DNA from: Acidithiobacillus ferrooxidans ATCC 23270
GTDB lineage: Bacteria; Pseudomonadota; Gammaproteobacteria; Acidithiobacillales; Acidithiobacillaceae
DNA: 64,000 nucleotides
Direction: 5' to 3'
Assembly (NCBI RefSeq): GCF_000021485.1
Contig: NC_011761.1
Coordinates: forward strand, 62,001-126,000
Shown here: positions 26,071-30,625 of the stretch, one piece after another
Layout: the number at the start of each line of letters is the position of its first letter
Position numbering within the stretch: position 1 is the stretch's first letter
Translations under genes and position numbers: made by a program
The notes under the pieces: generated by a model
Told to the model about the DNA's origin: nothing
Seen by the model: only the letters and a program-made list of their open reading frames with translations
The model's database searches: none

Positions 26071-26228
26071 TTCAGATCAGTCAGGAATTATTGAAGCCGC
26101 GTGCCAGCAGCCGCCATCTGGTCGTACCAGCGGTATTTACTCTTCCGTCCAATGCTTGGCGTGCCCGCCCACGCTCATATCGTAGCGCAGACAGCGACTT
26201 GGTCAGAGGTGAGCCTCCCAAGGATTGA
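26067..26228 (+). pseudogene. Short ORF fused to island debris after fic
   Basis: ATG overlaps the Fic stop (ATGA) and begins MIQISQELLKPRASSRHLVV, which looks like the real N-terminus of a coupled gene. After about 28 residues it runs antisense into the end of the frameshifted vapC and stops at 26228. Probably a truncated partner of fic; family not recognised. Confidence 0.35.
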
Positions 26229-26633
26229 TGATGGCCACGCCGGTCGGCTCGAAGTCGGCTACATTCCGGGTCACCACGGTCATGCCATGCACAAGTGCGG
26301 TGGCTGCGATATACGCGTCTCGCTCGGGGCGAGGATTGGGCACATGGAGTTGGGCACAACGAAGTGCTACAACCCCTCATCGATCGGCAGCGTGCGTTCG
26401 GAAAATTCAGGAAGAACATGGTGGTCCATCCAAGTGCGCAGCCGCGCTCCTTGAACGGCGTCACGCCGCTCCACGCGGAGAATACCAACCTCAAGTTCCA
26501 TGGTGGTCACGGCCGAGATGTAGAAACTCGTTGCGTCCGTGCCCGACAGCCATGCTGTAACGTTGGCATCGGCCCTGCCGTCGCCGGCCTTGCGCAGCTC
26601 GGAAATAACATTGGTATCAAGCACGAACATCAT
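26203..26633 (-). pseudogene. vapC: VapC-type PIN toxin with frameshift
   Basis: The frame opens MMFVLDTNVISELRKAGDGR (first catalytic Asp) and continues to PEFSERTLPIDEGL-stop. Shifting frame near 26372 restores VALRCAQLHVPNPRPERDAY, then VHGMTVVTRNVADFEPTGV and INPWEAHL-stop at 26203. One base is missing within GATGAGGGGTTGTAGCA. The reconstructed protein would be about 143 residues with all four PIN acidic positions. Either an inactivated toxin or a sequencing error; its antitoxin gene is intact. Confidence 0.85.
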
Positions 26634-26872
26634 TCAAAGGCCGCTGGCCGGGGAAACTCGCGTGAACGGGGGATCTCCATTTCGATATCGGCAATGCCCG
26701 GCATGGACAACGCCTCAACGAGGTTCCTACGCTTGCCAGTAAGTCGCCGGTATTCCTCGATGCTCAACAGCACGTGTGCTGGTTTGCCGCGATCCGTGAT
26801 GAACACTGGGCCGTTCTTGGCACGAGCAACGTCCTGATTAAGTTCTCGGCTGGATAGGGTCGTGATGGTCAT
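26630..26872 (-). CDS. Phd-type antitoxin
   Basis: 80 residues beginning MTITTLSSRELNQDVARAKN followed by GPVFITDRGKPAHVLLSIEEYRRL, the Phd/YefM fold, then a toxin-binding tail. ATG at 26872 has CAGGAGG about 8 bases upstream and overlaps the vapC start by four bases. Because the toxin reading frame is broken, this may persist as an orphan or anti-addiction antitoxin. Confidence 0.9.
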   Translation of the reverse strand: MTITTLSSRELNQDVARAKNGPVFITDRGKPAHVLLSIEEYRRLTGKRRNLVEALSMPGIADIEMEIPRSREFPRPAAFE

Positions 26873-26955: not shown

Positions 26956-27129
26956 CTAACCCATCAGTTTCCCTTTGTTGGCATCGAGAAACGCGGCGGT
27001 GACTTTCGGTTCGCCCGCTTCCCTGGCGGCCTTCTCGATTTTGGCCTTGGCCATGTTGCGCACGAAAGAAGGCATCTTCTCCAGGCGTTGCAGTGCGTCT
27101 TCGTCCCAGGGCAGCGTCTGTTCGCTCAT
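26956..27129 (-). CDS. Small PCP_red-domain-like protein
   Basis: 57 residues: MSEQTLPWDEDALQRLEKMP then SFVRNMAKAKIEKAAREAGE. This pattern (W-x2-x-A-x2-R/L-x4-P-x-FVR-x-M-x3-I-E-x-x-A) resembles the PCP_red domain found at the C-terminus of light-independent protochlorophyllide reductase and as stand-alone proteins in non-phototrophs. Function of stand-alone forms is unknown. GGAG lies upstream of ATG 27129. Confidence 0.6.
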   Translation of the reverse strand: MSEQTLPWDEDALQRLEKMPSFVRNMAKAKIEKAAREAGEPKVTAAFLDANKGKLMG

Positions 27130-27239
27130 TCGTCGACTCCTTCATCAGGTGGGTACAGGTAGGGGATTGCGCTTGCGCGCACAGGTATTGAGGCCATTAT
27201 CAAACAGTCTGCGCGGCAAGTCACGACGCCCCTGTGACA

Positions 27240-27668
27240 TCAGGAAAACCAACGCAGGAATGCCGCGGCGGTGAGTGCCGTGACACCCAGGCCAAAATCG
27301 GCACCCAGAACCCGGCGCTGCCCCGCGCCCGACCATCCGCTTTCAAAGCCCAGGTAGGTCATTCCGAGGATGATACCCGCAACGGCACACGCCATCTTGA
27401 GGAACAGGGCCGTCAGGGCGATCCCGTGAATGTCGGGCAAACGGCCATCATAGGCATAGCTGGTAATCCCGAAAAGGGCGCCGGTTACCCCCTGGTTAAC
27501 CCATCCCAAGGTGATTACCCACACCAGCGTTCTCTGCGTGCCGGGAGAACGGCGCGCCAGCAGCAGCGCCGCGGCGCCGCCGCCGACGATGGCCACCGCC
27601 CCCAGATTGTGCAGCGCCTGAATGCAGGCATAGAGCAGAAGTTGGGTGCTGAAGAAGAAGCCCGACAT
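27240..27668 (-). CDS. Four-helix integral membrane protein, unassigned
   Basis: 142 residues with four hydrophobic segments (about 5-35, 48-68, 80-105, 118-140) and an early His (QALHNLGAVAIVGGG) in the first. The layout is reminiscent of CopD-like four-helix proteins but no motif proves that. ATG at 27668 follows the stop of the secreted protein gene by 2 bases, so the two form an operon with the larger gene first. Confidence 0.7.
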   Translation of the reverse strand: MSGFFFSTQLLLYACIQALHNLGAVAIVGGGAAALLLARRSPGTQRTLVWVITLGWVNQGVTGALFGITSYAYDGRLPDIHGIALTALFLKMACAVAGIILGMTYLGFESGWSGAGQRRVLGADFGLGVTALTAAAFLRWFS

Positions 27669-27670
27669 GG

Positions 27671-28102
27671 CTACTTGACCGTAACCAAAATGCACCGGTT
27701 GACCCCGATGAGGACGTGCGCCACCGTGGCCTCCTTGATGCAGATGTCATGGGTACCGGGCGCCAATGTGCCCAGGGAAAAGGTCCCCTTCAGTTCATGG
27801 CTTAATCCGGCCATGTGGTTGTCGACGTAGAAGTGGATGTGATTGCCGTTAGGGGCCAGGGTGACATCGTAGGACAGGACCACGGGAACGCCGGCAGCGA
27901 TCTCGGCGCCATTGGCGGGGGCGAGGATCTGGATATACTTCAGGCCGGAAGGCGTGGTACCGCTGCCTTGGGGCATTTTTCCAACGGGGTTGCCGTTCAT
28001 GGCGAGCTGCAAGGGAGGACTGGCCGCAGCTCCGAGCGAAACCATCATCGGGCATAGCGACACAGCGGCGACCAACAGGATACGGCGGATATCGGGGCTC
28101 AT
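27671..28102 (-). CDS. Secreted beta-sandwich protein, DUF4399-like
   Basis: 143 residues with a signal peptide (cleavage near AASP, about residue 27). The mature part has IQILAPANGAEIAAGVPVVL then HIHFYVDNHMAGLSHELKG and LGTLAPGTHDICI, an Ig-like pattern similar to DUF4399-type periplasmic proteins. Cys residues near 117 (DICIKEA) and 137 (NRCILV) could form a disulfide. It is first gene of a two-gene operon with the downstream membrane protein. Role unknown; a periplasmic ligand or metal function is possible. Confidence 0.65.
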   Translation of the reverse strand: MSPDIRRILLVAAVSLCPMMVSLGAAASPPLQLAMNGNPVGKMPQGSGTTPSGLKYIQILAPANGAEIAAGVPVVLSYDVTLAPNGNHIHFYVDNHMAGLSHELKGTFSLGTLAPGTHDICIKEATVAHVLIGVNRCILVTVK

Positions 28103-28247: not shown

Positions 28248-30506
28248 TCAGGGCCGTTCGATGGTCCTTATGACAGGATTTTCTGCCAGAGACGCCTCGT
28301 TTCCCGTGATCAGGCGGGTGCCCCGTTTGAACGTGAGATAGGCCCAGAACCAGTTGAACATCACCGAGATGCGGTTGCGCAAACCCACGAGAAGAGCTAC
28401 ATGAATCAGGCCCCATAGCCACCAGGCCGATGCGCCGCTCACGTTGACGCCGTTGAAGCTTGCCACTGCAGCTTTCCTGCCGATGGTGGCGAGGCTGCCC
28501 ATGTGGCGGTATGCAAATGGCGGTTGCTCCGACTGTCCTTGTAGTTTTCGGCGAATCGTTCTTGCCACGTAGGCCCCGCCCTGCTTCGCCGCCGGTGCCA
28601 GGCCGGGCACCGGTTTTCCCTTCCAGGCATTGGCCAGCGCGGTGTCACCGATGACAAACACGTTTGGCAGACCGGCTACCGAGAGGTCCGGTTCGACTTT
28701 CACCCTGCCGCTGCGGTCGGCTGCAGCGTTGAGCCATCGCGCCGCCGGGGATGCCACGACCCCCGCCGCCCACAATACCGTGCGAGACGCCAGGCGTTCG
28801 CCGTTGATGCGCACTCCCTCCTGATCAATGTGCTCTACCCTGCTTTCCAGCATGACCTCGACGCCCAGCCGTTCGAGTGAGCGCTGCGCCTTTTCTGATA
28901 ATACTCCGGGAAAAGTCGGCAGGATGCGCGCAGCCGACTGAATCAGAACCACGCGGGCGCTGGCCGGGTCGAAATAGTGGAACTCCTTCTCCATGCCGTG
29001 GCGCACCAGTTCGGCAATGTCGCCTGCCAGCTCGACCCCTGTTGGTCCGCCTCCCACAATCACAAAGGTGAGCAGGCCCAGACGCTCGGCGGGATCTTCG
29101 GCAGATTCCGCCTGTTCGAAGGCGGAGAGAATCCGTCGCCGTATTTCCACCGCATCGTCGATGGTCTTCAATCCCGGCGCATAAGGCTCCCACTCGTCCC
29201 GTCCGAAATAGCTGTGGGACGCGCCCGTAGCAAGCACCAGGTAATCGTATGACAGGCGTCGTTTGCCGATCAACACCGCCCGTTGCGTGGTATCGATCCC
29301 GGTCACCTGACCCAGCAGCACCTGTACGTTGAGGTGATCGCAAAACAGGCCACGCACCGTAGCGGCGATATCGGCAGGGGAAAGCGAAGCCGTGGCGACC
29401 TGATATAACAAGGGCTGGAACAAGTGGTAGTTATGGCGATCGATCAGGGTCACCCGCACCGGCGTTTTGGTCAACCGCGCCGCGCATGCCAGCCCACCGA
29501 AGCCGGCGCCCACGATCACCACGTGCGGCGCACCCTCCGGCGGACATGTCTGCCTGCCGCTGATCTGCGGGAGGATAGCCGAAATCCATTTGTCGAGCGA
29601 CAGATCGCCCGGCCCATACAGGCCAACCAGTGCCAGCGTCATCATGAAATAGACATCCGCCGGATCAGCCGCGCCGGCTGCATGCATCCCGGCAACGGCC
29701 AGCATAAGCAGTAGTGCGGCGGGGCGGGCGGCCAGGCCGAAAGTCACGAGCAGCGCGCCCACCAGCGCCAGCGTGGGCGCCGGGGCAAAATGGGCCAGCG
29801 ACTTTTCCGGAAGCAGCTTTGTCAGCCCGACGGGTATCGAGGTTTCCGTACTTGCCGCCAGCAGTGCCAACCCAAGCCACAGACGGATAAGCAATTGATA
29901 GTACGGCCTGAGATATCGCGTAACGGCGCCCGCCAGGCGGGTCAGCGCCGTGGCGAAGGGCAGCGCGGTATCCCCCAATCCTCGGGCGAGGAGATGGTCC
30001 AGCGACAGTGGCCCCGCACCACATATCACGAACCACCCGAACAGCACCGCCGAGTACAGGTTGATATCCAGAGCGAGGTAGTTGAACTGGACCACCAGCA
30101 CGAGAATGAGCATGTACAGCGCGGCCCACCGGGTTGCCAACCCCAGCGCGAGCAACATCGGGATGATCATCTGTATCGCGGCGCCCAGATAGGTGGGGCT
30201 GAGCGGCTCCACCCACGGCACGGGATATGCCGCACCGGACAGGTAGGGCTCGATGCTCAGGCCGAAAATCCTTAATACGCCCGACACAAAAAAGACTTTC
30301 GCCAGCCACAGGCGGATCAGGAGGTCCACCACAGGTCCGCCCGAATGCTCCAGCAAGCGGTAGGTGGCAGCGAGGGCGCCTGTCGGAGCCGGCAGCCACC
30401 GGGTGGCGAGGTCGCGGAGGCTTCGCTCTGCCCTGTTCAATCTACCGGACCGCGATGGCCATAGGTTTGCCGGCGCATTGCAGGTAACCTGAACCCTTGG
30501 GGGCAA
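28248..30506 (-). CDS. Fusion of two DoxX-like membrane domains with type II NADH dehydrogenase
   Basis: 752 residues. Residues about 55-175 and 200-315 each look like a four-helix DoxX domain (VVDLLIRLWLAKVFFVSGVLRIFG; YYQLLIRLWLGLALLAAS, ending YGPGDLSLDKW). From about 325 a complete NDH-2 follows: first dinucleotide fold HVVIVGAGFGGLACAARL, second FVIVGGGPTGVELAGDIAEL, and FAD/quinone motif NVFVIGDTALA, with a C-terminal amphipathic tail. NDH-2 oxidises NADH and reduces quinone without pumping; DoxX/DoxD domains are linked to thiosulfate:quinone reduction and redox homeostasis. The TTG start at 30506 is the longest option and uncertain. Confidence 0.85.
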   Translation of the reverse strand: MPPRVQVTCNAPANLWPSRSGRLNRAERSLRDLATRWLPAPTGALAATYRLLEHSGGPVVDLLIRLWLAKVFFVSGVLRIFGLSIEPYLSGAAYPVPWVEPLSPTYLGAAIQMIIPMLLALGLATRWAALYMLILVLVVQFNYLALDINLYSAVLFGWFVICGAGPLSLDHLLARGLGDTALPFATALTRLAGAVTRYLRPYYQLLIRLWLGLALLAASTETSIPVGLTKLLPEKSLAHFAPAPTLALVGALLVTFGLAARPAALLLMLAVAGMHAAGAADPADVYFMMTLALVGLYGPGDLSLDKWISAILPQISGRQTCPPEGAPHVVIVGAGFGGLACAARLTKTPVRVTLIDRHNYHLFQPLLYQVATASLSPADIAATVRGLFCDHLNVQVLLGQVTGIDTTQRAVLIGKRRLSYDYLVLATGASHSYFGRDEWEPYAPGLKTIDDAVEIRRRILSAFEQAESAEDPAERLGLLTFVIVGGGPTGVELAGDIAELVRHGMEKEFHYFDPASARVVLIQSAARILPTFPGVLSEKAQRSLERLGVEVMLESRVEHIDQEGVRINGERLASRTVLWAAGVVASPAARWLNAAADRSGRVKVEPDLSVAGLPNVFVIGDTALANAWKGKPVPGLAPAAKQGGAYVARTIRRKLQGQSEQPPFAYRHMGSLATIGRKAAVASFNGVNVSGASAWWLWGLIHVALLVGLRNRISVMFNWFWAYLTFKRGTRLITGNEASLAENPVIRTIERP

Positions 30507-30625
30507 CAGCAGTATGCCGTGTCCATTAAATATTCCATATGATTCATAAGTTGGTATTATAGGCGGTGGGGCACATCATGGGAACGACTTGTGCTTGTAA
30601 TACCCAGACGGATGAGGAGCGCGTT

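Follow-up and report, generated by a model that had tools for sequence, protein, structure and literature searches.

The genes of an exported Ig-like protein and of a four-helix membrane protein, which lie side by side in Acidithiobacillus ferrooxidans ATCC 23270, almost certainly constitute a conserved two-gene module. The pair is widespread, apparently uncharacterised and probably an operon, and its two products probably cooperate at the outer face of the inner membrane. With regard to function, we favour metal handling, to which we assign a probability of a little under 40%: judging from conserved residues, structural models and the analogy with known copper systems, the Ig-like protein may capture a metal ion and hand it over to the membrane protein. 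The two genes that flank the pair in this genome, one encoding a DoxX/NDH-2 fusion and the other a stand-alone PCP_red protein, look like chance neighbours.

Location and identification of the gene pair

The stretch of DNA analysed, referred to here as the window, comprises 64,000 nucleotides and spans positions 62001-126000 of a genome that consists of one contig (2,982,397 bases). The original prediction had placed three leftward open reading frames at this locus, and all three were confirmed on the minus strand, at the coordinates listed in Table 1, by an ORF check and by their homologues. Given that homologues are found in other genomes, the three frames represent genes rather than chance frames: in other genomes of the genus, the homologues of the Ig-like protein are full-length with 67-97% identity and those of the four-helix protein are full-length with 82-98% identity, and, elsewhere in the order, the PCP_red protein has homologues with 89-98% identity. 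Among named organisms, A. ferruginosus is the closest found, its membrane protein being 98% identical.

Table 1. Coordinates of the gene pair and of its neighbours in the window
Feature	Positions	Strand	Product and evidence
Exported Ig-like protein gene, module gene 1	27671-28102	-	143 aa; ORF, family alignment A4, AlphaFold2, conservation
Four-helix membrane protein gene, module gene 2	27240-27668	-	142 aa from ATG; ORF, family alignment A5, AlphaFold2, conservation, charge topology
PCP_red stand-alone protein gene, neighbour outside the module	26956-27129	-	57 aa; PF08369 E 1.6e-17; variable context
DoxX/NDH-2 fusion gene, neighbour outside the module	28248-30506	-	Pyr_redox_2, NDH2_C and DoxX above cut-off

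Only 2 bp separate the stop codon of the Ig gene from the start of the four-helix gene, and an alternative GTG start of the latter, 27 bases further upstream, falls within the Ig gene. The PCP_red gene lies 110 bases past the four-helix gene, and the DoxX/NDH-2 fusion gene ends 145 bases ahead of the Ig gene. No literature tied to these genes was found with the guessed locus tags AFE_0091 to AFE_0100, most items being judged by their listing; a section of PMC12997845 gives AFE_0091 as a pilus gene.

Linkage of the Ig-like and four-helix genes

The membrane-protein alignment alone was scanned against genome contigs of 84,980 species, which yielded 106 relatives, and the best 80 of these 106 loci were kept and named. 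When searched with an Ig profile (A3), made from six sequences of Acidithiobacillus type plus one relative, 76 of these 80 loci showed an Ig gene immediately upstream of the membrane gene. The four loci lacking it by this check are L062, in which the membrane gene is itself a fragment, L071, L090 and L096; in L093 and L095, the Ig gene is truncated by a contig end. The intergenic gap has a median of 3 bp (n=74) and ranges from -4 to 13 bp in 71 of the 74 cases, the start codons having been picked by script. The distances among Ig-like proteins correlate with those among membrane proteins (Mantel r 0.755, reached by 0 of 999 permutations), to which shared ancestry contributes.

The same picture emerged when 370 genomes, drawn evenly from the class, were searched with each profile on its own. 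The membrane gene was detected in 19 genomes and the Ig gene, at E <= 1e-5, in 28; all 19 genomes with the membrane gene also possess the Ig gene, and the two are adjacent in 17 of them. In the remaining two (G050 and G181), the genes are located on separate contigs, and these are the same genomes as L090 and L096, as shown by identical membrane protein cores. The nine genomes with the Ig gene only comprise one strong match (G212, which has no membrane gene) and eight weak ones. The hypergeometric probability of this co-occurrence by chance is 2e-25, phylogeny not being removed. The two samples are not independent, since 7 of the 21 distinct survey rows are also a named locus. At the level of the order (31 genomes), the Ig gene is present in eight genomes and the four-helix gene in nine. 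They are adjacent in all eight genomes with the Ig gene; the ninth (G002) shows a membrane-protein match of 63 residues only and no Ig gene. Conserved linkage, the test that the original prediction had set for itself, is strong for these two genes; it does not extend to the DoxX/NDH-2 gene, which stands beside the pair in one of the eight genomes, or to the PCP_red gene, which does so in three.

The record titles of the members belong mostly to beta- and gammaproteobacteria and include Ferrovum, Gallionella, Thiobacillus, Sulfuricella, Nitrosospira and Nitrotoga, which we take to be oxidisers of iron, sulfur, ammonia or nitrite. In a plasmid search, neither the Ig-like nor the membrane protein of L100 gave a match. 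Clustering of the neighbouring genes revealed no general third partner common to the 80 loci, apart from the two genes themselves and antisense ORFs that overlap them; weak neighbours may have been missed because the ORF picking took antisense ORFs in some loci of high GC content. The commonest neighbours, named from a reading of their sequences, are GGDEF-type or sensor-like genes (15 loci) and uvrA-like genes (7 loci), followed by P-type-ATPase-like and sulfatase-modifying-like genes (6 loci each) and by secY-, L17- and rpoA-like genes (4-5 loci). A gene resembling that of a formylglycine-generating enzyme, likewise by sequence reading, is located within 8 kb of the pair in the gammaproteobacterial loci L066, L075, L107, L110, L119 and L121. 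A tandem duplication of the whole pair was observed at L060:2915-4186 and at L063:1157-2558, the first copy retaining only a short piece of the membrane gene.

The Ig-like protein

The family alignment of the Ig-like protein (A4) comprises 75 rows. It leaves out L116 (masked letters), L093 and L095 (contig end) and L071, L090 and L096 (no upstream Ig gene); L062, a fragment of 70 residues, is absent from both A4 and the membrane-protein alignment A5. All 74 fetched members exhibit a hydrophobic N-terminal stretch, and two carry a lipobox. In the AlphaFold2 model of the window protein, an Ig sandwich follows this stretch at residues 55-142, with a block pLDDT of 92-98 from residue 61 onwards.

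The domain of the window protein carries His88-x-His90, His118, His129, Cys121 and Cys137. The original prediction of conserved His and two Cys was borne out by the alignment: all 75 rows have His88, 74 have His90, 74 have His129 and 60 have His118, and both cysteines occur together in 67. His118 is replaced by arginine in 13 of 53 non-redundant rows, and the cysteine pair is absent in 8 of the 75. In the model, one strand carries both His88 and His90, two residues apart, and the turn that leads into the last strand carries His129; these three residues may form a single site. The Ig-like proteins of L102, L104, L114, L123 and L126, two of which come from records titled Ferrovum, lack the usual cysteine pair and have a CPCSE stretch near the middle instead.

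Neither protein of the pair in the window reaches a Pfam or NCBIfam cut-off. The closest domain families of the Ig-like protein, at E <= 0.01, are Big_7 (PF17957), matched by 28 of 75 members (best 3.3e-6), DUF6130 (PF19625), matched by 17 (best 1.8e-4), and DUF4399 (PF14347), matched by 3 (best 0.0019). The window protein scores 21.3 bits against DUF6130 and 18.4 bits against Big_7, in both cases short of the gathering scores of 23.7 and 24.1; other members may pass that of Big_7. A literature search by name listed papers with a mention of DUF4399 and no paper on DUF6130. By sequence, the PDB offered two matches for the family (E 0.13 and 0.94). By structure, the best matches of the model are FnIII and Ig modules, headed by the FnIII domain of CbhA (VIA Z 11.7-11.6; top match Z 11.7, rmsd 2.4, 86 aligned residues) and followed by other enzyme-attached Ig domains, with SoxYZ and CopC chains lower among the Foldseek matches.

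The four-helix membrane protein

The window protein is modelled by AlphaFold2 as four helices with a mean pLDDT of 93.4. In the family alignment A5 (80 rows), Gln17, His20, Asn21, Gln59, Lys91, Arg139 and Trp140 are present in all 80 rows, Cys94 in 67 and His81 in 58; the early histidine that had been singled out in the original prediction, His20, is therefore invariant. The strings around Tyr13/Gln17 and the C-terminal TAAAFLRW served as search patterns for the 80 loci, so that the invariance of TAAAFLRW in A5 is partly circular. As strings around Gln17 and Arg139 had fetched these loci, the rows of the survey, which were found by profile, provide a fairer test of conservation. In these rows, Gln17, His20 and Asn21 are present in all 20 that reach them, Gln59 in 20 of 21, Lys91 and Arg139 in 21 of 21, and Trp140 in 20 of 21. 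Of the 21 distinct survey rows, 20 retain LRW at the C-terminus, 16 retain the longer AAAFLRW and 13 the complete TAAAFLRW.

Lysine and arginine residues are concentrated in loops 1 and 3 in all 80 rows, and by these charges the N-terminus, loop 2 and the C-terminus should therefore face the periplasm in all 80. With this orientation and the helix boundaries of the model, His20 and Lys91 would lie at roughly one third to one half of the membrane depth as counted from the periplasm, and Arg139 would be near the surface.

No Pfam or NCBIfam model clearly matches the family. A scan of the 80 members against both returned scattered weak matches at most (best E 0.0055 and 1.7e-4, few members each), a search of the PDB by sequence returned none, and structure searches of the model gave nothing specific, with no match at E <= 0.001; CopD and HemJ are absent among the structure matches listed, which excludes nothing. 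HemJ (PF03653) resembles the membrane protein in having four helices, the same size, an early histidine and a later lysine, but its profile scores of 12.3/11.9 are noise, being reached by 31 and 38 of 60 shuffled controls. CtaM (DUF420, PF04238) is likewise small and membrane-bound, and a passage of PMC13344008 places it in a copper-trafficking pathway for haem-copper oxidases; its comparison with the family gave scores of 18.2/18.4, with a Prob under 2% and a partial, out-of-register alignment. The profile comparisons with HemJ, DoxX and DUF420 all amounted to noise. The genome of A. ferrooxidans itself (G000) has no HemJ PF03653 match at E <= 1e-8, and 47 of 56 sampled genomes have one.

Comparison with CopC and CopD

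CopC and CopD (PcoC/PcoD, YcnJ; PF04234/PF05425) resemble the pair in layout, as they combine a small periplasmic beta-sandwich with a multi-helix inner-membrane protein and both carry histidines. A second copy of the Ig gene in the same genome (C1:2354638-2355069, 70% identical) precedes copC and copD by about 430 bases (L031:8639-10982 = C1:2354638-2356981), these two being identified by CopC PF04234 at 6.5e-19 and CopD PF05425 at 2.4e-15. This neighbourhood is a single case: a single-sequence search at E 1e-4 with the CopC and CopD of this genome as queries, which covered the 80 named loci and another 15 regions, many of them short, detected neither gene beside the pair.

At the level of sequence, the window Ig-like protein has no CopC match in Pfam at E <= 10, its 75 family members have none at E <= 0.01, and none of the 80 membrane members matches CopD at E <= 0.1. 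Foldseek places CopC 5icu 17th for the Ig model, at an E of 1.2e-3 and a TMq of 0.40, behind generic Ig and FnIII domains. The CopD of this genome has 364 aa, in contrast to the free four-helix protein of the pair.

Profile alignment of the membrane family with partial or few CopD sequences scored 21.5/26.2. With six large CopD sequences, the scores of 20.9/26.3 exceeded all 60 window-shuffled controls (best 20.8/24.3), in one direction by 0.1, and the alignment is co-linear over most of the four helices (reversed 20.5/19.6). With 31 CopD sequences, the scores fell to 20.6/21.3 at a Prob of 4-5%, and 4 and 3 of the 60 window-shuffled controls scored as high, the alignment being co-linear over about 120 columns (reversed 14.7/12.0). 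With 17 small four-helix proteins of CopD type, they were 12.0/16.6, against shuffled scores of up to 16.8. In the non-significant CopD alignment, the helix-1 histidine and the helix-3 lysine come close together. Since CopD against HemJ scores 27.5/35.2, the test is able to detect remote relations. Homology to CopD is thus not established, only the set of six having beaten its controls, and the family was not filed under CopD because the larger alignments (31 and 17 sequences) gave scores within the control range. By analogy, the membrane protein may nevertheless work like CopD without being CopD.

Proposed function of the pair

The Ig-like protein is a free, exported domain with an HxH...H trio, and its gene lies a few bases from that of a membrane protein with a polar cluster that could be reached from the periplasm; this combination suggests the capture of a metal outside and its hand-over to the membrane. 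The Ig domain would bind one metal ion through His88-x-His90, on one strand, and His129, and pass it to the four-helix protein, in which Gln17, His20, Asn21, Gln59 and Lys91 would form a pocket within the membrane that is open to the periplasm, where the conserved 'PD' loop and the C-terminal Arg-Trp would adjoin its mouth. From there, the membrane protein would carry the ion into the cell or supply it to a metalloenzyme of the membrane. Of the candidate metals, copper comes first, since the second Ig copy precedes copC and copD and copper systems such as YcnJ share this layout. A section of PMC13344008 reports that His24 of the CopC domain and His295 of the CopD domain of B. subtilis YcnJ are needed for copper-limited respiration, and an excerpt of PMC6769254 describes several copies of CopC and CopD in betaproteobacteria of metal-rich places. 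The proposed mechanism resembles that of CopC/CopD, and membership of those families is not claimed. A more far-reaching reading, which we consider possible and somewhat doubtful, is that the pair represents an undescribed class of periplasmic metal acquisition or delivery, comprising an Ig metal chaperone (HxH...H) and a minimal four-helix partner of a new family, analogous to CopC/CopD by convergence or very deep homology.

Several observations weigh against a metal relay. The CopC/CopD linkage is a single case, with none in the 95 regions, and generic Ig and FnIII domains outrank CopC in Foldseek. In the rows counted above, arginine stands in place of His118 or the cysteine pair is missing. 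The two genes reside on different contigs in G050 and G181, L071 has no upstream Ig gene, and G212 has the Ig gene and no membrane gene. Finally, a consensus pattern scan of the window, which is no proof of function, gave a weak terminator-like match at the junction of the two genes (27710-27693) and no promoter-like match directly ahead of the Ig gene. An unlikely alternative on present evidence takes the four-helix protein for a small membrane protein linked to haem b or quinone, with His20 as axial ligand, and the Ig-like protein for its periplasmic partner, which would make the two an electron-transfer or cytochrome-related pair instead of a metal-ion relay. A four-helix bundle with a fully conserved histidine and conserved lysine and arginine is what such a protein might look like, 3 of the 80 members touch the model of formate dehydrogenase cytochrome b556 (best E 1.7e-4), one matches Ni_hydr_CYTB at 0.068, and the weak Foldseek rows include cytochromes c' and bd, polysulfide reductase and STEAP1. 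Those structure matches are nevertheless at noise level, none attaining E <= 0.001, and there is no conserved bis-His pair, as only one membrane histidine is fully conserved and His81 is found in 58 of 80 rows.

The pair could also serve as a chaperone or assembly factor of the envelope, one possible client being a respiratory oxidase or cytochrome c, with histidines that bind a partner rather than a metal. The CtaM-like size of the membrane protein, the spread mostly over beta- and gammaproteobacteria by record title, and the absence of a general third gene, as expected for an assembly factor, are consistent with this role. It is improbable to much the same degree as the haem reading, given that the DUF420/CtaM comparison stays under 2% Prob, partial and out of register, and that a by-eye reading of the shared neighbours listed for the 80 loci finds no prominent oxidase or cytochrome gene. 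Still less probable is a ligand-binding or adhesive role for the Ig domain, with the four-helix protein as its anchor or sensor: the best structural matches of the Ig model are indeed modules of carbohydrate enzymes, with the FnIII domain of CbhA at the top, whereas a free single domain with three near-invariant histidines would be unexpected for a spacer.

If the metal-handling reading is correct, a common, unnamed gene pair of bacteria that subsist on metals, sulfur and ammonia would gain a testable function, and structural work could address the membrane partner, of very small size, of a periplasmic metal chaperone. Even without a metal role, the linkage defines a two-gene family, the four-helix member of which lies beyond Pfam and NCBIfam save for scattered weak matches among its 80 members.

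The neighbouring DoxX/NDH-2 and PCP_red genes

The original prediction had united all four genes in one possible periplasmic redox or metal module. Of this, a metal module is plausible for the Ig/four-helix pair alone; the redox part, involving the quinone-reducing fusion, is unsupported. Among the 31 genomes of the order, the fusion is present at E <= 1e-100 in seven, in one of which (G029) the match covers the NDH-2 half only. Four of the eight pair genomes possess it (G000, G004, G005 and G011); it adjoins the pair only in the window's own genome and is on other contigs in the three drafts. In G003, G007 and G012, the fusion (window 28248-30522) is deleted, and the pair is intact there, with proteins 95-98% identical to those of the window. 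Scraps of the fusion persist between an isochorismatase-like gene and the Ig gene, corresponding to window 28374-28447 and 29326-29357 in L023 and L024 and to 30326-30379 and 30406-30436 in L025. The scraps of L025 are different from those of L023 and L024, which suggests that the gene was deleted more than once.

The PCP_red gene occurs in 13 places in 11 genomes of the order. Seven of the eight pair genomes have it, and only three have it beside the pair (G000, G003 and G007). The other 12 places, in 10 other genomes (L042-L053), encode proteins 89-98% identical in changing surroundings, and the gene is also present in four genomes in which the searches detected no intact pair (G002, G013, G014 and G024). 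Among the 95 regions, the fusion protein as query matched an NDH-2-like gene in L133, a relic in L054 and, weakly, a sequence in L191; PCP_red was detected in L054 only.

A four-gene module can draw on the shared strand and order of the genes in this genome and on the PCP_red gene following the pair in G003 and G007 as well. It is nevertheless highly improbable and was rejected on linkage, given the fusion beside the pair in one of eight genomes, its loss in three close relatives that keep the pair, its near absence from the 95 regions and the occurrence of PCP_red without the pair.

Downstream of the PCP_red gene, the window contains a PIN (VapC-like) toxin gene at 26203-26633 on the minus strand, which is split between two frames, 26367-26633 and 26203-26343, each of which matches part of the PIN profile with a score under the cut-off, and which adjoins a Phd-type antitoxin gene (26630-26872). 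A PIN or Phd gene follows PCP_red, as in the window, in L042 (G014) and L046 (G002), and L042 holds an intact PIN copy of 145 aa.
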